From: a bacterium
GTDB taxonomy: Bacteria > Elusimicrobiota > Elusimicrobia > Elusimicrobiales > UBA9959
Assembly (NCBI GenBank): GCA_021811185.1
Contig: JAJZPL010000013.1
Coordinates: 1-64,000, forward strand
Reading direction: 5' to 3'
DNA length: 64,000 bases
The notes under the pieces are model-generated. The model was given only the letters and a program-made list of their open reading frames with translations, made no database searches and had not been told where the DNA came from. Below, one piece after another: positions 36,154-46,001 of the stretch; positions within the stretch are counted from its first letter, which is position 1, and each line of letters opens with the position of its first letter. The position numbers and the translations under genes were made by a program.

Positions 36154-36171
36154 TTTTAGACACGTCTAAAA
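36154..36171. repeat. Perfect 8-bp inverted repeat at the DUF2062/PAP2 junction
   Basis: TTTTAGAC (36154-36161) and GTCTAAAA (36164-36171) flank two bases. It overlaps the last codons of the PAP2 gene and lies 60 bp upstream of the DUF2062 start. It has operator-like shape; it is too AT-rich to be a strong terminator. Confidence 0.55.
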
Positions 36172-36954
36172 CTTGCAAGCCAGCGCCAGGCCGCCGGGAG
36201 AGGGCAGCAGGGTAAGCGCGGAGTTCCTGCCGCCGCCGCCTGCCACATCCCTTCCCACCAGCGTGCCTATAGCGGCGCCGGCCAGCACATCCGAGGCCCA
36301 GTGCTTGTCCGCGTAGATGCGCTGCGCGGCCACGCCCGAAGCCAGCGCGTAGGACAGCACCTTTACCCAGTTGGAATCAGCGCGCGCCGCGAACACCGAG
36401 GCCACGGAGAAAGCGCTCATGGTATGGCCGGACGGGAAGGACGTTCCCGAGGATTTAAAACCGAACGGGACAAAGCGCCTCTTGCCGTCGCCCGTGTACG
36501 GGCGGGAGCGGCCCACCGCGTATTTAAGCAGGGTGCCGGCGGCGTTGGCCGCCAGGAAAGACTCCGCCGCGAGCACGGCCGTGCCCTGCATGTAGCCGTC
36601 GCCCGCCAGCCTGCCCGCGCCGCCGTAGGCCAGCAGGAAAGCCGCCTCATACCCGCCGTTGCCGAATTTTTCCAGGGTATTGAACACCCCGTCGGCCGAC
36701 GAAGACTTGTTCCTGGAGGCCAGGCGCCGGATCTGGCCGTCCTGGGAGTAAACCAGCAGCCCGGCGGCGGCTATGGCCCCGGCCAGCTCCGCCCCGCCCG
36801 TAGTGAGCCGCAGCGGCGCGGTGAAAACTCGCCCTGTTTCCCGGAGAGAGTCTCCGGGAAAAGTCTTAAGGGCCTGCGCCGACAGCGCCGCCGGCGAGAC
36901 CAGGGGCAGGAGGGCCGGGAGTATAAAGAGGAACTTTTTAAGGACGTTCCTCAT
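36166..36954 (-). CDS. PAP2-superfamily phosphatase, exported
   Basis: The 262-residue product has a signal peptide (FLFILPALLPLVSPAALSAQA) and all three PAP2 phosphatase motifs: KYAVGRSRP (K-X6-RP), FPSGHT, and AQRIYADKHWASDV (H-X3-D). Known members dephosphorylate membrane lipids or polyprenyl pyrophosphates. Only one or two helices flank the motifs, so it may be a periplasmic or outer-membrane-type PAP2. The start overlaps the stop of the PepSY-protein gene (ATGA). Position within glycan genes fits recycling of lipid carriers or trimming of lipid phosphates. Confidence 0.88.
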   Translation of the reverse strand: MRNVLKKFLFILPALLPLVSPAALSAQALKTFPGDSLRETGRVFTAPLRLTTGGAELAGAIAAAGLLVYSQDGQIRRLASRNKSSSADGVFNTLEKFGNGGYEAAFLLAYGGAGRLAGDGYMQGTAVLAAESFLAANAAGTLLKYAVGRSRPYTGDGKRRFVPFGFKSSGTSFPSGHTMSAFSVASVFAARADSNWVKVLSYALASGVAAQRIYADKHWASDVLAGAAIGTLVGRDVAGGGGRNSALTLLPSPGGLALACKF

Positions 36955-37508
36955 TTTCCGGCCTCAGCCGAAGCTTCGGCTTTCTCTTCTTTCGCGGATT
37001 CCTCGTTGTTCAGCACCGGCTTGCCGGTAACCGCGTCGATCCAGACCTCCCTGGTCTTCCCGCCCTCCCTGATGTCGAACGACCAGATATAAAGGCCTTT
37101 TTCCCGCTCAAGTTCGCCTTCCTTTATCACTCCGCCTTTTACGAGTGCCAGCGCGGCCTTCTCCGCGGCCTGGCGGCTTACAGGCTTAACCTTGCGCGCC
37201 GCCCTGGCCGCCGCCGCATCTTCGGCTTCTTCCTTTTTCTCCGCGGCCCTGGTCTCGGTCTTGTCCTGAATAATAAAGCCGGTAGAGGCGTCTACCCAGA
37301 TCTCGCGGATCACCGGCCCGGTACTGATATCGAAAGACCAGACCTCTTTACCTTCCTCTTTTTCCAGCTCCGCGCCCTTTATTATTCCCCCCTTTACCAG
37401 GTCCAGCGCGGTTTTCTGCGCGGCCTCACGGGTTACCGTTTGCCCGGCCGCGGCAAAAGCCGGGACCAGCAGCGCCGCCGCCGTAAGCGTCATAATTGCG
37501 TGTTTCAT
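36951..37508 (-). CDS. Exported protein with two PepSY domains
   Basis: The 185-residue product has a signal peptide (MKHAIMTLTAAALLVPAFA) and two copies of a PepSY unit: TREAAQKTALDLVKGG to EIWVDASTGFII, and SRQAAEKAALALVKGG to EVWIDAVTGKPV. Each ends with the WV/WI-D-A-TG-x signature. PepSY modules are thought to bind or inhibit peptidases. A Lys/Glu/Ala linker joins the repeats. It is co-transcribed with the PAP2 gene through a four-base overlap. Confidence 0.85.
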   Translation of the reverse strand: MKHAIMTLTAAALLVPAFAAAGQTVTREAAQKTALDLVKGGIIKGAELEKEEGKEVWSFDISTGPVIREIWVDASTGFIIQDKTETRAAEKKEEAEDAAAARAARKVKPVSRQAAEKAALALVKGGVIKEGELEREKGLYIWSFDIREGGKTREVWIDAVTGKPVLNNEESAKEEKAEASAEAGK

Positions 37509-37589: not shown

Positions 37590-38225
37590 TTACTTAGCCT
37601 TTTCCAGTTCATCCACGAAGTCCGCGGCTTTAGCTGCCTGGCGCGCCCGCGCGTCCGGCTTTGCGGGGCGGCCGAACTCCGCGGCCAAGGCATCTCCGTC
37701 AGCGGCGAGTTTGGCGTGGGCGGCGAAACCTGGCCGCAGCACGGCCCAGAGCGCCGTCAGGGAAGCGGCGCGCCGCTCGATGACCGCGCGGTCGTAGGGC
37801 CCGTGGAGCCTGGCGCGCAGGACGATATCCATGGCGAGGTAGTCGAACCAGACGAGGCGCGCGGTCAGAACTTCAGCCGGGGGTTCCAGTTCAAGCGCCA
37901 CCAGCATAAGTTGATTGGCCGCCAGCGCCCCGGAGGTGGAAGCTCCGCGGGTACACAGCTCCTTCGCGCGGCCAAGCAGGTCGTCGGCCAGCGCCAGGTT
38001 TACCCCGGAGCGTCCGCCGGCCTCCGCCGGAGCGGGGATGCGCAGCAGCGCCGCTTCGGCCGCGGCCATAAGGCGGCGCGCCTCGGCGGTCTTACCGGAC
38101 GAGCAGGTATCGGCGAGATCTTCCGCGGCCTCGCCCAGGCTCAGGGGGACCGGGGAGGGAGCCGCCGCCGCGAAAGCCGGCGAGAGCAGTACCGCGGCGG
38201 ACATCAGTGCAATTCCAAGTTTCAT
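37590..38225 (-). CDS. Exported alpha-helical protein, function unknown
   Basis: The 211-residue product has a signal peptide (MKLGIALMSAAVLLSPAFAAAA) and then reads as an Ala/Leu-rich helical protein (EAAEDLADTCSSGKTAEARRLM, ANQLMLVALELEPPAEV, AKAADFVDELEKAK). No family is recognised; the repeat-like helices suggest a TPR-like or four-helix-bundle fold. A Shine-Dalgarno sequence (GGAGG) precedes the ATG. It follows the second PAP2 gene by 20 bp and is likely in its operon, under the regulated promoter at 39178-39231. Confidence 0.55.
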   Translation of the reverse strand: MKLGIALMSAAVLLSPAFAAAAPSPVPLSLGEAAEDLADTCSSGKTAEARRLMAAAEAALLRIPAPAEAGGRSGVNLALADDLLGRAKELCTRGASTSGALAANQLMLVALELEPPAEVLTARLVWFDYLAMDIVLRARLHGPYDRAVIERRAASLTALWAVLRPGFAAHAKLAADGDALAAEFGRPAKPDARARQAAKAADFVDELEKAK

Positions 38226-38245: not shown

Positions 38246-39097
38246 TTAAAATCTTGTCGAGGCCATCAAGCCGTAATGATAGGGAAGTATCGTCAGTTCA
38301 GGCTTTTTTTGCGGCGCCGCCGGTTTGACTTCCCGGTCTTTAGAGGCCACCCAGCTGCCTATAGCCCAGCCTATGGCGCCGCCCAGGATCACTTCCGAAA
38401 GATAATGCTTCCGGTCGTAAAGCCGCGACTGCGCCACCGCCAGGGCCCCGCCGTAGACTATAGGCGTATGCCAATAACCGAAAGTGTCCCGCAGGTCAGT
38501 GTCCAGCACCGAGGCCAGGGCGAAAGCGGCCGCGGTATGCCCGGAAGGGAACGAGTAGCGGTGCCAGGTAAAAGGCCTGAAGTTGCTCGGCGATTCCCCT
38601 TTGGAGGGCAGAGCCCGGCCGGTCATATAGCAGAGCGCCGGGTTGATCATAAGCGCCGCTATCAGGCTGGCCTCGGCGGCGTCCGCCGCTATCTTGCGCA
38701 TCTTCAGGCTGCCGAAAGCGTATCCGCCAAGCCATAAGCCCGAGATCAGGGGAACCTGGTATTTAGAATCCCCGAAATGCGTCACCGAATTACTAAGGTC
38801 GCGCAGGGACTCCATCCGGTGCGTGTCGTAATGATCCGCGACGCTGTCGTCTACGAACAGCGAGCCGCCGGTAGCGCCCAGCACCCCGCCGGCAAGCAGC
38901 CACTGCCCCTTGCTCCAATGGGCCGGCTTGGTGGGCAGTTCTTTAATGTCGCCCCAGAGGCGTTTTCCATAACCTATAGGGTCCGGCGCCGGCCGTTCGC
39001 CGCTGAAGGCCGGCTCCGCGGCCTGGGCAAGTATCACCGCCGCGAGAAATGCAGCCGATGCCTTTCTAAGAAGTATTTCTTTCGCGCCTTGCCCCAT
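38246..39097 (-). CDS. PAP2-superfamily protein with degenerate first motif
   Basis: The 283-residue product is exported (signal peptide near residues 10-32) and has PAP2 motifs two and three: FPSGHT and AQSRLYDRKHYLSEV. In the first motif the usual K-X6-RP reads CYMTGRALP, with Cys for Lys and Leu for Arg, and the usual PF/GH spacing follows (SNFRPF). Loss of these basic residues may weaken phosphatase action or shift the substrate. AGGAGG precedes the ATG. The three-copy promoter module stands about 80 bp upstream, and the exported helical protein gene follows. Confidence 0.82.
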   Translation of the reverse strand: MGQGAKEILLRKASAAFLAAVILAQAAEPAFSGERPAPDPIGYGKRLWGDIKELPTKPAHWSKGQWLLAGGVLGATGGSLFVDDSVADHYDTHRMESLRDLSNSVTHFGDSKYQVPLISGLWLGGYAFGSLKMRKIAADAAEASLIAALMINPALCYMTGRALPSKGESPSNFRPFTWHRYSFPSGHTAAAFALASVLDTDLRDTFGYWHTPIVYGGALAVAQSRLYDRKHYLSEVILGGAIGWAIGSWVASKDREVKPAAPQKKPELTILPYHYGLMASTRF

Positions 39098-39177: not shown

Positions 39178-39231
39178 TTTATAGCATACCGCCCTTGCGG
39201 GAGCCTTTCATGAACATTACAGTTCCGTAAT
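39178..39231 (-). promoter_or_regulatory. Promoter module copy 1 (upstream of PAP2-like gene)
   Basis: On the minus strand: ATTACGGAACTGTAAT (39231-39216), 16 nt, CGCAAGG (39199-39193), 9 nt, TATAAA (39183-39178). The geometry is identical to the copies at 41113-41166 and 42871-42924. The palindrome has one mismatch from ATTACA-N4-TGTAAT and overlaps the end of the asparagine-synthase gene. Confidence 0.75.
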
Positions 39232-41058
39232 CCTCCTGTCCCGCAGCCAGAGGGACAATATTACCAGGCGGAAATAAAACCCCGGGTCCGCCCCCGGAGC
39301 GCCGCTGCGCAGATCTTTTAAGCCTTTGGAAAGAACTTCCTGCCGGAAAAGCCCCGTATCCCGCAGGACGGGCCCGGTGAGGGCTTCGGCGCTGATATCG
39401 TTGGACGCGGAGCGCATCCAGCTATTGCAGCGCAGCACGAACCCGTGCTTGCGCCGGGTCAGGATCTCTTTAGGCAGCAGACCGGCCGCCGCCTTGCGCA
39501 GCAGATATTTGCCGCGGAAAAATCGCACTTTAAGGCCGGCCGGCAGGCGGAACATGAACTCCACCAGGCGCAGGTCCAGCAGAGGGACCCGCGCTTCAAG
39601 CGAAGCTCCCATGGTCGTCTTATCCACTTTCATCAGCAGCTGGTCGGCCATGGAAGTCTGCAGGTCAAAGGCTAAAAGCCCGTTAAGGCCCTTCAGCCCG
39701 TCGAACCTGCGAAGCCACTCAGGGCGCCCGGCATTGGAAGACCACGGGGTCATAACGTCCAGGGCGGACTTTACGCGCGGCCCCGCTTCCGCCGCGGCCC
39801 AGTCGGCTGGTCCCTTAAGCGGCACGCCGCGGAAATACGCGCCCGGGCCGGCGCGCCGGGCCAGCGGAGCGGCGGCGCCCCGCAGCCAGGAGGGAAGCCT
39901 TTCCAAGGCCTCGGTGACATAGGCCGCCTTATGCCGGCCATACCCGGCAAAGACCTCGTCCCCCCCCTCGCCCGTCAGCGCCACCTTTACGCTCTTGCGG
40001 GCCTGCCTGGCAAGGTACCAGGTGGGCAGGATGGCGGCGTCGGCTATAGGCTCGTCCATACAGGCTATCATCTCGCCGATATTGTCCAGAATGCCCGCGG
40101 GAAGGCGGAGCGTTTCGTGGCGGGTGGAAAGGAAACGGCTGACGGCCTCGGCGTAACGCGTTTCGTCCACGCTCTCTCCGCCGTCGAACCCGATGGAATA
40201 GGACCTGACCGGCCCGGAAGCGGAGCGCGCCATAAGGGCGGTCACCAGGCTGGAATCCAGGCCGCCGGAAAGGAACACCCCGACGGGGACGTCGCTGGCC
40301 ATCTGGTCGCGCACGACGCGCTCGAGCAGCGGGCGCAGTTCTTCCGCCGCCTCCTCCTCCCCGAGATCCTGCCGCTCTTCCGCCTTCTGCGGCAGCCGCC
40401 AGTAGGAAACCTCCACGGAGCCGCCCCCCTGTTTCACCGTCATCCAATTGCCGGCCGGGAATTTTTCTATCCCTTCGATAAGCGTAGCGGGAGAATGCAC
40501 GTAGCCGTAGGCCAGGTAGTCCGAAACGGAGGCAGGTGAGAGACGGCGCGGAACGCCGGCGGCCAGCAAAGCCCGCAGTTCCGAGGCGAAATACAGGCGG
40601 CCGCCGCTGCGGCAGGTGTAGAGGGGCTTTACCCCCAGAGGGTCCCTGGCCAGGGTCAGCGAGCGTTCTTTTGAGTCCCAGACCGCGCAGGCGAAGATGC
40701 CGTTCAATTCGGCGAAGAAAGCCGGCCCGCGCAACGAAAACCCCGCCAGCAGGGTCTCGGTGTCGGAACTGGTGCGGAACCGCCAGCCTGAGGCCTCGAG
40801 CGGCGCCCTGAGGGTCCGGTGGTTGTATATTTCGCCGTTGAAAACCACCGTAAAACGCCCGTCCGGAGAGGTCATCGGCTGATGGCCGCCCCGGAGGTCC
40901 AGGATGGAAAGGCGCTGGAAGGCTAGCCCCGCGGGCCCATCCGCGAAGCACCCGGAATCGTCCGGGCCGCGGTGCACCAGCGCCGCGTGCATAGCCAAAA
41001 GCTCTTCCCGCTGGCACGGGCGTCCGCTGGTCTCAAAAATTCCGGCGATACCGCACAT
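39217..41058 (-). CDS. asnB: Asparagine synthase (glutamine-hydrolysing)
   Basis: The 613-residue protein has an N-terminal glutaminase domain beginning with the catalytic Cys2 (MCGIAGIF), then RGPDDSG and FNGEIYNH. A synthetase domain follows with the ATP motif SGGLDSS near residues 261-267, then GEGGDEVFAGYGRH and SMADQLLMKVDKTTMG. It amidates Asp with ammonia from Gln, but paralogues in glycan clusters amidate other carboxyl groups, such as sugar acids. Its setting between GT39-like and PAP2 genes makes that second role plausible. AGGGAG lies 7 nt before the ATG. Transcription should start at promoter module copy 2. Confidence 0.93.
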   Translation of the reverse strand: MCGIAGIFETSGRPCQREELLAMHAALVHRGPDDSGCFADGPAGLAFQRLSILDLRGGHQPMTSPDGRFTVVFNGEIYNHRTLRAPLEASGWRFRTSSDTETLLAGFSLRGPAFFAELNGIFACAVWDSKERSLTLARDPLGVKPLYTCRSGGRLYFASELRALLAAGVPRRLSPASVSDYLAYGYVHSPATLIEGIEKFPAGNWMTVKQGGGSVEVSYWRLPQKAEERQDLGEEEAAEELRPLLERVVRDQMASDVPVGVFLSGGLDSSLVTALMARSASGPVRSYSIGFDGGESVDETRYAEAVSRFLSTRHETLRLPAGILDNIGEMIACMDEPIADAAILPTWYLARQARKSVKVALTGEGGDEVFAGYGRHKAAYVTEALERLPSWLRGAAAPLARRAGPGAYFRGVPLKGPADWAAAEAGPRVKSALDVMTPWSSNAGRPEWLRRFDGLKGLNGLLAFDLQTSMADQLLMKVDKTTMGASLEARVPLLDLRLVEFMFRLPAGLKVRFFRGKYLLRKAAAGLLPKEILTRRKHGFVLRCNSWMRSASNDISAEALTGPVLRDTGLFRQEVLSKGLKDLRSGAPGADPGFYFRLVILSLWLRDRRITEL

Positions 41059-41085
41059 AAGCTGCTCCCTTGAACTGCGCCTGCC

Positions 41086-41102
41086 GGCCGGTTCAACCGG
41101 CC
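41086..41102. repeat. Perfect 8-bp inverted repeat in the asnB leader
   Basis: GGCCGGTT and AACCGGCC flank a single base between the -10 hexamer (41118-41113) and the ribosome site. It could be an operator or a leader hairpin. Confidence 0.6.
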
Positions 41103-41112
41103 TTATGCGGTT

Positions 41113-41167
41113 AGTATATCCGGCGCACCTTGCGGCAGGCTTACCGCCGGATTACATTTTTGTAATC
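41113..41167 (-). promoter_or_regulatory. Promoter module copy 2 (upstream of asnB)
   Basis: On the minus strand: GATTACAAAAATGTAATC (41167-41150, a perfect 7-bp palindrome with 4-nt spacer), 16 nt after the core, CGCAAGG (41134-41128), 9 nt, TATACT (41118-41113). It overlaps the 3' end of the upstream GT39-like gene. No -35 box resembling TTGACA exists, which suggests activator dependence. Confidence 0.8.
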
Positions 41168-42790
41168 TCTCAATTGCCCGGCAACACTTCGGCAGCCCGC
41201 CGGGATGAAGCCGCGTTCGACCGCTTTGGAAAAAACCGCGCAAACCGCGTCGGCGCGGTTCCCGAAATCGAACCTGTGCCGCCCCGGAAGCAGGTAGACG
41301 TCCGCGCCGGGAACCAGCGGCCTGCCGTCGAGTTTACGGCCCGCCGCGGCCGGGAGAAAAGAATAACCGCCTTCCACCAGCACATCAAAAGCGGCAGTGG
41401 CGCCACGGCCTGGTGCGGGCCGCAACCTTGCCCCGGCCACTTCGATGAATGGAGAGACTTCAAGAAAATCCTTTTCGCCAATAGCGGTCAAGCTTGCGGG
41501 AAAGGCTTCCTTGTCCAGAGTAACCAGCACCCAATCTTTTTGCCGGGACATATCCGCGCCTATCCGCTCCGGATCCAGCAGGCCGGCCTGCATGCGCCTT
41601 TTAGTAAAAAGCTCCAGCGCGTAATAATACGGCCGCCTGCGGAAGATGTTTTCCCCCTTGGCGTCCATAACATAATCATCCGGATCCGTGAGGCGCAGAA
41701 TATCGCTCCACAGGCGCTCCTCGGCCAGGTTCTGCGCCCTGTCCGAATGGCGCCGCACCAGGAAAACGAAAAAGACCAGCGCGCCGGCCAGGATAACGAC
41801 CCGGACGGAACCGTCCGGAGCTTTTTTCTTAAGGCCTGAAAAAAGCAGGCCGCCGGCCAGTACCGCGGCCGTCTGGGTCACCGGCAGCCTGGTTTCCCTT
41901 TCCAGCACCGGATACAGCACCGAAACCGCAAGCAGGGAAAAAGCAAGGAACCACAGCAGCCGGAGCGGGCCGGCGGCGGCCTTCAGGCGCCGTGCAGGGA
42001 GGAAACCGGCCAGCAGCCAGAGAGCGGCCACGCCGGCCTTCCGCCCGGGGTCGGTATATACGGAGGGCAGAAGATTGTGCAGCAGCGTCCCGTAAAACAT
42101 GGCTTTCAGGGCGCCGAGCTCATAAAAAAGCGACAGGAAAACCAGCCAGACCAGCGCGGCGGCCAGCGCGGCGCCGGCCGCAAAACGCAGAAAACCGCCG
42201 CGCGGTTTGCCGGAGCACAGCCAGGAAAAAAACCAGGCCAGCGCCGCAGCCGGCAGCAGGAACACCAGCGTTTTAAGCGAAACCAGGCTGTTAGCGGCGG
42301 TCAGCAAGCCGAAGCCTGCCCCGGAGCGCAGCGTGTTCTCTTTCTTCAGCAGAAGGTACGTTGAGGCGGCGAAGAGAGCAAGCCAGAGATTGTCGGGGCG
42401 GAACTCCACGGACGCCCCTGAGAAGTTCAGCGCGAACCCGGCCGCCAGAGAGGTCCAGAGGGCCGTTTCCCGGTCAAAAACCGTTTCAGCCGCCAGGTAG
42501 ACGAAATACAGATCCGCCGCGAAGAGCGGCAGCATCAGGAGCCGGCCGTACAGCAGCAGGTGCGGCGTGGCCCCGAACAGGGCTATGAACGGCGCCAGCA
42601 GCATATGAAAAAGCGGCGTATGATTATCGAACAGGTCGCGGTACTGCACCAGGCCGTTGGCCCAGCTCCAGACCGTGTGCATATGCTGCAGTTCGTCGCT
42701 GTCGTACTTCAGGCTGAAGATTTCCAGCAGCCGCGAGGCGGCCAGCAGCGCCGCAACCGAGAGCGGTAAAAATTTTTCATTAAGGCGCAT
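41141..42790 (-). CDS. GT39-like integral membrane glycosyltransferase (paralogue of 33992-35641)
   Basis: The 549-residue product has about ten membrane helices, and the acidic first-loop motif DSDELQHMHT with YRDLFDNHTPLFHML matches its paralogue (NDELQHMHT, YRDYFDNHVP). The C-terminal part is hydrophilic. ATG 42790 gives exactly the paralogue's length, which supports this start, although no strong ribosome site is adjacent and an upstream GAGGGAG lies about 29 nt away. The promoter module copy 3 controls it, and the stretch after the module resembles the leader and first codons of asnB. The role is sugar transfer from a lipid donor; the acceptor is unknown. Confidence 0.8.
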   Translation of the reverse strand: MRLNEKFLPLSVAALLAASRLLEIFSLKYDSDELQHMHTVWSWANGLVQYRDLFDNHTPLFHMLLAPFIALFGATPHLLLYGRLLMLPLFAADLYFVYLAAETVFDRETALWTSLAAGFALNFSGASVEFRPDNLWLALFAASTYLLLKKENTLRSGAGFGLLTAANSLVSLKTLVFLLPAAALAWFFSWLCSGKPRGGFLRFAAGAALAAALVWLVFLSLFYELGALKAMFYGTLLHNLLPSVYTDPGRKAGVAALWLLAGFLPARRLKAAAGPLRLLWFLAFSLLAVSVLYPVLERETRLPVTQTAAVLAGGLLFSGLKKKAPDGSVRVVILAGALVFFVFLVRRHSDRAQNLAEERLWSDILRLTDPDDYVMDAKGENIFRRRPYYYALELFTKRRMQAGLLDPERIGADMSRQKDWVLVTLDKEAFPASLTAIGEKDFLEVSPFIEVAGARLRPAPGRGATAAFDVLVEGGYSFLPAAAGRKLDGRPLVPGADVYLLPGRHRFDFGNRADAVCAVFSKAVERGFIPAGCRSVAGQLRDYKNVIRR

Positions 42791-42870
42791 ACACAAAGGT
42801 AATACCGCACGGGAACTGCTCCCTCGAACCGCGCACTTTGACCAAGCGGCTATGCGGTCCCGCTGCTCCA

Positions 42871-42924
42871 AGTGTAGCGAACGCACCTTGCGGCAGGCTT
42901 ACAGCAGGATTACATCGTTGTAAT
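42871..42924 (-). promoter_or_regulatory. Promoter module copy 3 (upstream of GT39-like gene)
   Basis: On the minus strand: ATTACAACGATGTAAT (42924-42909), 16 nt, CGCAAGG (42892-42886), 9 nt, TACACT (42876-42871). It matches copies 1 and 2 base for base in spacing, and copy 2 also in sequence across GTAAGCCTGCCGCAAGGTGCG (split as GTAAGCCTGC and CGCAAGGTGCG). Confidence 0.8.
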
Positions 42925-42986: not shown

Positions 42987-44387
42987 CTACGCGGCCGGGA
43001 TGCGAAGAACGAAAACGGAACCCTCGCCGGGTTTTGACTCCACCGCGGCGGCGCCGCCGTGGGCCAGGGCCACGGCGCGGACCAGGCTTAAGCCCAGGCC
43101 CAGGCCTTTCTCGTGGCGGCTGGCGTCGCCGCGGTAGAGGCGGTCCCAGATGCGCGGAATGTCCCCGGCGGGGATGCCCGGCCCCTGGTCGCGAACGCGG
43201 AACACGGCGGCCCCGTCCTCTTCGGCCAGCGAGATGGAAACCGCGCTGCCGGGCGGCGAGTATTTTACGGCGTTATCCACAAGATTACCCAGCGCCTGGC
43301 GCACCCTGGCGCGGTCGCAGGAAATTTTCATGTCGGAGCCGATCCTCACGGATATGCCAATGCCTTTGGCTTCGGCGGGATAGCCGTATATCTCCCCCAC
43401 CTCGGCAGCCACCCCGGCCAGCCGCACAGGCTCGCATTTAAGCTTCATTGCCCCGGCCTCGGCTTCGGAAATCTCCATAAGCGCGTTCAAAAGTTCCAGG
43501 ATCCGTTCCGTCTCCTCGAGGCAGTCGGAAAGGGCCTCACCGCGGCTTTCTGCCGAAGTATTCTCCGTCAAAGCGGTTTCCGCCACGGCGCGCAGGCGGG
43601 CCATCGGGGTGCGCAGGTCGTGGGCCACGTTATCGAGGGCTTCGCGCATGCCGTCGACCAGCGCCGAGATCCTGTCCAGCATCCTGTTGAAGAGCGCGCC
43701 CGCTTCGTCCAGTTCGTCCGCGGCGCCGCGCACGGGCACCCTGGCGGCAAGGTTGCCGGTTTCAATGGTTCTTACGGTTTCAATAAGGTTCCGCAGCGGT
43801 TTTAACGCGCGGTTGGTGAGGAAAGTGCCGCCGATAAGGGCGAGCAGGATGGCCGGGACCATGACGACAAGGGCGATGTCCTGGAAATTCTCGAGAAAAT
43901 TTTCCCGGTCGGCCGTATCCATCCCCACCTGCAGCACGGCTCCGTCCGGCATACGCCCGGAAAGCAGTTCAAGAACGTCCTCATCCCCCCCGGTGCTTAT
44001 AAAATCCCAGCGCGGCGCTTCGCCCTTGCCGGGCAGTCCTGTGGAAGACGGGTTGAACCGGGCGTAGCCGCCCGCCGTAGACAGGAAACTTACGGTCCCG
44101 TCCCTGGAAAAGATCCTAAGGTAGAAAGGCCCGCCGCCGGCCGCGGCCTGCCAGGCCTCCGTCTTCAGGTTTTTCAGGCCGTTCCTGTTATACTCCAGGC
44201 TGAGCTCGCTGAACCTGGCGGTGATATCGCCGCGGTCCTCCCGCCTGAGCGAAGATGCCAGCAGGAAGTACGCCAAACCCAGAACGCAAAGGCTGCCGGC
44301 CAGGAAAAAGGCGGCATACCACGCGGCCAGTTTGAAACCGGTGGTCCTGGCGGCACGCCTGAAGGAACTACGGATTTTTAAAAACAT
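42987..44387 (-). CDS. Membrane sensor histidine kinase (CusS/heavy-metal-sensor-like)
   Basis: The 466-residue kinase has TM1 ([22 protein letters not shown]), a periplasmic loop of about 130 residues, TM2 ([20 protein letters not shown]) and a HAMP segment ([16 protein letters not shown]). The HisKA box is [19 protein letters not shown] with His near 254, followed by N ([16 protein letters not shown]) and G boxes ([39 protein letters not shown]). The shape and HisKA box are those of CusS-type sensors. It overlaps the response-regulator gene by 20 bp. The stimulus is unknown; the periplasmic loop shows no clear Met/His copper motif. Confidence 0.93.
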
Positions 44388-45045
44388 AGCCCACCCCGCG
44401 GATGGTACTTATCAGACTTTTCTTAAAAGGCTTGTCCAGCTTGTCCCGCAGGCGGCAGACCAGCACGTCCACCACGTTGGTCTGCGGGTCGAAATCGAAG
44501 CCCCAGACATTCTCCAGGATCAGCGCCTTTGAAACCGGGCGGCCCGGATTGCGCATGAAATACTCCAGCAGGGCGAACTCGCGGGGTTGCAATTCTATCC
44601 TGACCCCCTGGCGCGTCACTTCCCTGCGCGGCAGGTTCATCAGGACCCCTTCCGCCTTAAGGACCGAGGGCTCCGCGGCCTCTCCGCCGGAGCGGCGCAG
44701 CAGCGCGTTCACGCGCGCGAGCAGTTCGGAAAAAGAAAACGGCTTCACCAGGTAATCGTCGCCGCCGGCCTGCAGGCCGCGCACCTTGTCGTCCACGGTC
44801 CGCTTCGCGCTGAGTATTATTACCGGCACGCGGGAGCCGCGCCCGCGCATTTGTGAGACGAGGCCCAGGCCGTCCAGTTTAGGCAGCATGATATCCACCA
44901 CGGCGGCGGCATAGTCCGCGCCGAGCGCCTTCGCCAGGCCGTCCTCGCCGTCATAGGCGCAGTCCACGCCAAAACCGGCCTGTTTAAGCCCGCCCGCTAT
45001 GAACGAAGAGATCTTTTTGTCGTCTTCAACGACCAGTAGTTTCAT
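44368..45045 (-). CDS. OmpR-family response regulator (CusR/CopR-like)
   Basis: The 225-residue protein has a receiver domain (acidic pocket VVEDD, phosphorylated Asp51 in [11 protein letters not shown], Lys in [14 protein letters not shown]) and a winged-helix DNA-binding domain ([43 protein letters not shown]). Both halves read like CusR/CopR-type regulators. It is transcribed first, ahead of its kinase. Members of this group bind ATTACA-TGTAAT-like or TGACA-like boxes, so it is the natural candidate for the palindromes in the promoter modules next door; this link is inference. Confidence 0.95.
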
Positions 45046-45054
45046 TGCTTATCC

Positions 45055-45092
45055 TTATGGCCGAATCGTTATGGCCGAATCGTTAAATTATA
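45055..45092 (-). promoter_or_regulatory. Promoter and tandem 14-bp repeat ahead of the response regulator
   Basis: TATAAT lies at 45092-45087 on the minus strand. Just downstream, the same 14 bases occur twice head to tail (45082-45069 and 45068-45055; minus strand CGATTCGGCCATAA). The repeats fill the region from about +1 to +28, and the start codon follows at 45045. Confidence 0.65.
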
Positions 45093-45167: not shown

Positions 45168-45632
45168 TTACCCTTTAAGCCTGTAGCCCATGCCGCGCAC
45201 CGTTTCGAATAATTTTTCATCATAGCCGCCGTCGACCTTCTTGCGCAGGTTCTTCATGTGCGCGTCCAGCACGTTGCTGACCGAATCGAAATCGAAATCC
45301 CAGAGATGCCCGACGATCTGCTCCCGGAGCAGCACCTGGCTGTGATGGCGCATGAAATATTCCAGCAGGCGAAATTCCTTAAGGGTAAGCTTTATTTCCG
45401 CGCCGGCCCTGAAAACCCTGGCCTTGGAAACGTCCAGCACCAGGTCCCCGACCTTCAGCTCGCCCGGCAGGGATTCGCGGGGCCGCCTGAGGCAGCTGCG
45501 CAGCCCGGCCAGCAGTTTTTTCCAGCCGGCCTCGCCGTCCGGGGCCGTGTCCACGGCGTAGCCTTCCTGCTCGAGCCCGCGCTTGAGCGAGCCGGCCAGT
45601 TTCGCATTGTCTTCGATCACAAGCAATCTCAT
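45168..45632 (-). pseudogene. OmpR-family response regulator with most of the receiver domain deleted
   Basis: The frame encodes 154 residues. It starts with a normal receiver N terminus (MRLLVIEDNAKLAGSLKRG to DGEAGWKK, residues 1-39) but then jumps straight to LLAGLRSCLRRP, the linker before the DNA-binding domain. The intact winged helix follows (LTLKEFRLLEYFMRHHSQ, VLDAHMKNLRKKVDG, ETVRGMGYRLKG). About 75 residues, with the phosphorylated Asp and signalling Lys, are missing in frame. There is no ribosome site and no partner kinase. It may still bind DNA constitutively, but a degraded gene is the simpler view. Confidence 0.8.
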
Positions 45633-45650
45633 ACGGGGAATACGGTCTGC

Positions 45651-46001
45651 GGGAAACTGCCTGATTTCTCCATGTTCATCCCCGACATCAAGAACGACGG
45701 GCACGACACCGGCGTGGCTTACGCGTCGAAGTGGCTTAACTCGTACTTCGCCCCGCTGATGAAGGACCCGGCTTTCATGAAGGACATGCTGCTGGTGATC
45801 ACCTTCGACGAGGACGACAAGTCCACCTCCGCCAACCACATCTATACCGCGCTTTACGGGGATTCCGTAACCCCCGGCAGCGTCTCGAACGACGCCTACA
45901 CGCATTACAGCCTGCTGCGCACCATCGAGGATACGTTCGGCCTGGGGACCCTGAACAAGAACGACGCCAAGGCCTCCCCCATAGCCGGGATCTGGCGCTG
46001 A
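45651..46001 (+). pseudogene. 3' remnant of a phosphoesterase-family gene
   Basis: About 116 codons encode the C-terminal end of a phosphoesterase of the acid phosphatase/phospholipase C superfamily (PF04185-like): KLPDFSMFIPDIKNDGHDTG, KDMLLVITFDEDD, NHIYTALYGDSVTPG, YTHYSLLRTIEDTFGLGTL and a terminal IAGIW. The upstream two thirds, with the N-terminal active-site residues, are gone. The homology starts only about 20 bp from the start codon of the truncated regulator reading the other way, so a deletion joined the two. No start codon is assigned. Confidence 0.8.

Follow-up and report, generated by a model that had tools for sequence, protein, structure and literature searches.

Candidate activator-dependent promoters with a four-half-site array beside a CusR/HprR-like two-component system in a member of the Elusimicrobiales

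Background

Palindromes of the ATTACA/TGTAAT kind are documented as sites of the response regulators CusR, HprR and LciR (PMC9302797, PMC6989116), the CusR/HprR box of E. coli hiuH being CATTACAAAATTGTAATG (PMC9302797). The Legionella LciR promoter is described as an inverted repeat with a pair of 4-bp elements between it and the -10. Full induction required all of them, and with any one part mutated induction was lost or nearly lost (PMC6989116). M. tuberculosis PhoP recognises motifs of 7 bp set strictly 4 bp apart, and as a tandem trimer or tetramer it binds with higher affinity (PMC4832192). Here we describe three copies of a promoter module in a window of 64,000 nucleotides (positions 1 to 64,000 of contig JAJZPL010000013.1, assembly GCA_021811185.1) from a bacterium of the order Elusimicrobiales. 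Judged from their sequence, the modules are very probably activator-dependent promoters of the adjacent two-component system, serving a small local regulon, and the heptamer CGCAAGG present in each would be the fourth half-site of a regulator-binding array. A preliminary description of this DNA had noticed the three copies and compared their palindromes with CusR-type sites, as the literature bears out, but had read the heptamer differently.

Position and geometry of the promoter modules

The modules lie on the minus strand (39231-39178, 41166-41113 and 42924-42871) and share one geometry. If the first A of the palindrome on that strand is taken as column 1, each copy holds ATTAC (columns 1-5), N6, GTAAT (12-16), 16 nt, CGCAAGG (33-39), 9 nt and a -10 hexamer (49-54).

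39178..39231, minus strand: module copy 1, 5' of the PAP2 gene 38246-39097; overlaps the 3' end of asnB
39231-39227, 39220-39216, 39209-39205 and 39198-39194, minus strand: half-sites of copy 1, in turn inverted ATTAC, GTAAT, GAAAG and GCAAG (within CGCAAGG)
39183-39178, minus strand: -10 of copy 1, TATAAA
41113..41166, minus strand: module copy 2, 5' of asnB; reaches into the 3' end of 41141-42793, which encodes the membrane protein
41166-41162, 41155-41151, 41144-41140 and 41133-41129, minus strand: half-sites of copy 2, the last two GTAAG and GCAAG
41118-41113, minus strand: -10 of copy 2, TATACT
42871..42924, minus strand: module copy 3, 5' of the membrane-protein gene 41141-42793, in the gap that separates it from the kinase gene
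42924-42920, 42913-42909, 42902-42898 and 42891-42887, minus strand: half-sites of copy 3, the last two GTAAG and GCAAG
42876-42871, minus strand: -10 of copy 3, TACACT

Pattern searches reproduced the coordinates and spacings first noted for the three copies, and also the placing of two of them inside the 3' ends of upstream genes (copy 1 in asnB, copy 2 in 41141-42793). The reported absence of a good -35 was confirmed as well: at spacings of 15-19 bp the best match to TTGACA is 2/6 in every copy. From the end of the -10 to the start codons the distance is 54-80 bp. The window holds three exact copies of the palindrome ATTAC-N6-GTAAT; order-1 Markov sequences predict 0.007 per 64 kb. The genome scan that the preliminary description had proposed, carried out with the full pattern and up to three mismatches, gave no match in 3.09 Mb outside these three places, and none at all in the reversed control.

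The heptamer within an 11-bp array

Each of the ten distinct sites now known from the genus (see below) has GNAA at columns 12, 23 and 34, with G(A/T)AAG at columns 23-27 and G(C/T)AA at 34-37; columns 23, 25, 26, 27 and 29 are invariant. Columns 23-29 lay outside the pattern used to search the relatives. The self-similarity of bases 12-16 peaks only at offsets of 11 (0.64 identity) and 22 (0.66), the flanking 10-bp offset giving 0.42 and the remaining offsets at most 0.30. Tandem sites of the OmpR/PhoB family have a period of 11 bp, and given this period and the 11-bp register of GNAA we conclude that CGCAAGG probably contains a fourth half-site. It is the half-site G(T/A)AAG at columns 23-27, previously overlooked, that gives the heptamer its meaning. 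Based upon these sequences the array appears to be composed of one inverted and three direct half-sites, to end 10 bp before the -10 and to replace the -35.

The two-component system and the proposed mechanism

Adjacent to copy 3 lie the following genes.

44368..45045, minus strand: OmpR-family response regulator, putative binder of the modules (from its domains and the distribution of its orthologues)
42987..44387, minus strand: cognate sensor histidine kinase (HAMP, HisKA and HATPase_c)

The regulator shows 45 % identity to CusR and to HprR of E. coli, has the phospho-acceptor Asp50 and Lys100 conserved, and is assigned to the OmpR/PhoB family by Response_reg at 85.7 bits and Trans_reg_C at 94.1 bits, each over its cut-off. 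Its best NCBIfam match, TIGR01387 (CztR/SilR/CopR heavy-metal regulator), scores 235.3 bits, below the cut-off of 279.2; the kinase scores 217.4 bits against TIGR01386 (heavy-metal sensor kinase), whose cut-off is 292.55. Of the earlier label, a CusS/CusR-like pair, the membership in a CusR/HprR-like branch of the OmpR family stands, whereas both proteins fall short of the curated heavy-metal models. The periplasmic sensor region of the kinase contains no His, no Cys and 2 Met, against 10 His and 8 Met in CusS, and a His/Met-rich metal-ligand region of the CusS type was not found in it.

Beside the regulator gene, 45168-45629 (minus strand) is a response-regulator relic with an intact winged helix and most of the receiver missing (Pfam: Trans_reg_C only). 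Just 5' of the start of the regulator gene, at 45057-45084, there is a short direct repeat, TATGGCCGAATCGT occurring twice.

From analogy with related systems we infer the following course. The phosphorylated product of 44368-45045 would bind the four half-sites with an 11-bp period, the inverted pair ATTAC-N6-GTAAT (about -60 to -45) being occupied first, and would then extend along G(A/T)AAG at about -38 and GCAAG at about -27, the two direct half-sites. From these positions the last subunits would contact RNA polymerase in place of a -35, as in class II activation of the PhoB/CusR kind; since the last two half-sites occupy the -35 position, the regulator presumably recruits polymerase to a -10 that has no -35. 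The output would be PAP2 phosphatases, a PepSY protein, AsnB and a glycosyltransferase-like membrane protein, and most likely amounts to a response that modifies the envelope. One might argue that the regulator represses, its array, which spans about -60 to -22, lying over the promoter and blocking polymerase. We consider this unlikely, for a promoter with no usable -35 should be weak without an activator, and LciR, the closest tested relative, activates from the same position.

Distribution in relatives and link to the regulator

The same pattern was searched for in the family (59 genomes in all), a scan of relatives having also been proposed at the outset. The module is present in 4 of the 31 other genomes of the genus, namely G016, G017, G018 (two copies) and G019 (three distinct copies), and was not found in any of the 27 genomes of the family's other genera. 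Two G019 sites, G019:C187:86 and C234:11558, come from a single locus, present at the ends of two contigs that overlap (150/153 identical), which reduces 11 listed sites to 10 distinct ones. An orthologue of 44368-45045 (66-91 % identity) occurs in exactly the four module-bearing relatives; among the 32 genomes of the genus, this one included, the best match is at most 48 % in every genome that lacks the module. The match in presence and absence gives a Fisher p of 5e-6 (label shuffling), G016/G017 and G000/G018 being related pairs. No module is more than about 6 kb from the orthologue, the one exception being the overlapping G019 end, alone on a short contig. One copy in G019 stands directly 5' of the regulator gene, as autoregulation would predict. 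A sequence-only covariance model run over the genus recovered clearly (E < 1e-11) the known sites only. In its tail, from E about 0.001 up, most matches are partial and cover columns 16-47; of the tail only G017:C19:116861 was used.

Based upon this co-occurrence, and upon linkage in 5/32 genomes, the adjacent CusR/HprR-like OmpR-family regulator is the likely reader of the modules, in agreement with the preliminary description. That the modules are read instead by another regulator, such as the degenerate 45168-45629 or an unlinked CusR-like paralogue, and that the adjacent pair is merely linked, is decidedly unlikely. The genome is rich in OmpR-family paralogues (82 matches) and similar arrays serve paralogues; the presence/absence match, however, is unique to the orthologue of 44368-45045, paralogues of 43-48 % identity occur in genomes without the module, and paralogues own arrays of a different type (see below). 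As for 45168-45629, its receiver domain is undetectable and in relatives it matches the main regulator only.

The exception in the tail, G017:C19:116861-116914 (L100:2862; E 0.007, full length), is a plausible GTAA-type array with a perfect GTAAT in fourth place. It precedes an operon that encodes an RND efflux pump together with a membrane-fusion-like protein; MFS and ChrB-like genes adjoin, and no regulator gene was seen within the 6 kb read.

Outside the family the nearest and only clear module is G164:C10:13673-13726 (L137:6674-6727), from another family of the class. It is located directly 3' of a kinase gene with a homologous sensor domain (33 % identity) and 5' of speD/speE, the genes for AdoMet decarboxylase and spermidine synthase. 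This module ties the regulator type to polyamine synthesis.

Arrays of paralogous regulators

The loci of paralogues in the genus (45-48 % identical) were scanned by the palindrome alone, two mismatches being allowed. Five of them carry ATTAA/G-N6-TTAAT-N6-(T/C)TAAG-N6-(T/C)TAAT-N11-TANACT, with a full half-site in fourth place; one example is ATTAA-N6-TTAAT-N6-TTAAG-N6-TTAAT-N11-TACACT.

L099:1483, minus strand: TTAA-type array
L101:6865, plus strand: TTAA-type array
L102:5123, plus strand: TTAA-type array
L103:1654, minus strand: TTAA-type array
L104:1835, minus strand: TTAA-type array

A search with the TTAA-type pattern found 26 sites in 18/59 family genomes (control zero), many of them directly 3' of a histidine kinase gene and 5' of a gene for a small secreted Ala/Pro-rich protein. 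Between the GTAA and the TTAA type all half-site letters shift together, the fourth place included, which a separate factor at that place would not explain. The preliminary suggestion that CGCAAGG, well conserved and 16 bp from the palindrome, is the site of another, unrelated protein that would act jointly with the palindrome-bound regulator is highly improbable, as the heptamer keeps exactly to the 11-bp spacing of two other GNAA half-sites and the paralogous arrays hold in its place a full TTAAT whose letters covary with the other half-sites.

Several points weigh against activation through a four-half-site array. The search pattern itself had a part in selecting columns 33-39, the fourth half-site is the most degenerate of the four, and the ten sites, related through duplications and common descent, are not independent. 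The regulator gene in the window is without an upstream module of its own. Furthermore, the -10 lies at column 49 in all modules here, one base nearer than in the E. coli sites and the TTAA paralogues, where it lies at column 50.

Target genes

The following genes stand behind the modules of the window.

41141..42793, minus strand: target, polytopic membrane protein; PMT_2 (glycosyltransferase-like) 18.4 bits, below the 26.1 cut-off
39217..41058, minus strand: target, glutamine-hydrolysing asparagine synthetase AsnB; TIGR01536 452.6 bits, cut-off 267.1
38246..39097, minus strand: target, PAP2-superfamily phosphatase (Pfam)
37590..38225, minus strand: secreted protein, family unassigned, probably co-transcribed downstream; conserved in G018
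36951..37508, minus strand: double PepSY-domain secreted protein, probably co-transcribed; immediately follows the module in G016 and in G017
36166..36954, minus strand: second PAP2 phosphatase, probably co-transcribed

The original naming of the downstream genes held for PAP2 and asnB (Pfam/NCBIfam), while "GT39-like" is weak for the membrane protein. The term "envelope-glycan" for the regulon is plausible, secure assignments being limited to the PAP2 phosphatases, the PepSY proteins and AsnB. Behind the modules of the relatives we find AsnB and then PAP2 (G018), the regulator, AsnB and PepSY/PAP2 (G019), and PepSY/phosphoesterase/PAP2/PAP2/membrane protein (G016 and G017). The membrane-protein gene and copy 3 stand here between the kinase gene and asnB; in G018 the nearest homologue is downstream of the PAP2 genes. 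The promoter keeps to its neighbourhood while gene order shifts.

At about 45640-46001 (plus strand) there is a C-terminal phosphoesterase piece, apparently a gene remnant. A relative of this piece, L027:10526-11518, is a full PF04185 gene within the same regulon in G016.

No metal-efflux genes were found behind the modules of the window. The pairing of lipid phosphatases with polyamines is reminiscent of PmrAB-type responses to envelope charge, and by analogy such a response is likely here.

Comparison with known systems

The present analysis ties a promoter code and a target set to one two-component system of an uncultivated lineage without transcript data, and removes the supposed unknown factor at CGCAAGG. 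More tentatively, a CusR-like clade of this phylum may possibly have left metal control to run envelope-modification regulons (PAP2, AsnB and PepSY, with speD/speE in G164) from one rigid four-half-site promoter, paralogues being told apart by nothing but the letters of the half-sites, GTAA or TTAA. If this were true, regulons of uncultivated bacteria could be assigned to their regulators from DNA alone.

The E. coli hiuH site reads ATTAC-AAAATT-GTAAT-GCTGCT-GTAAG with the -10 TATCCT at column 50, and copy 3 reads ATTAC-AACGAT-GTAAT-CCTGCT-GTAAG, sharing CTGCTGTAAG with it behind the palindrome. In hiuH, cusC and the plasmid-borne silC and silE (SilRS) the half-sites lie at columns 1, 12 and 23, and all four have the -10 at column 50. 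Unlike the modules, with their GTAA, the cusC, silC and silE sites have a half-site core of GTCA; the targets of silC/silE are silver and copper, those of the modules PAP2, AsnB, PepSY and the membrane protein. The last half-site (GCAAG) is clearer here than in E. coli. The tandem repeats of PhoB/PhoP (PMC4832192) also have an 11-bp period, several head-to-tail half-sites and the regulator in the place of the -35; in contrast to them the most upstream half-site is inverted here, which puts a palindrome ahead of the tandem array.

As regards the LciR/CusR-type inverted repeat ATTACAAnnTTGTAAT, ATTAC-N6-GTAAT is exact in all copies, and the inner AA..TT of the palindrome is kept only in part. 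The modules further have in common with that promoter type two short elements between the repeat and the -10, a fixed distance to the -10, and adjacent regulator genes. By analogy, the 4-bp elements of LciR may be equivalents of half-sites three and four (columns 23 and 34), so that the "two short elements" would be readable as further half-sites in 11-bp register. In place of the metal-efflux targets of that promoter type, PAP2, AsnB and PepSY are the targets here, and the sensor is devoid of His and Cys. The architecture is thus of a known kind, that of LciR and CusR, with different targets and a sensor lacking metal ligands: a known design that turns up in a new setting, before genes new to it.

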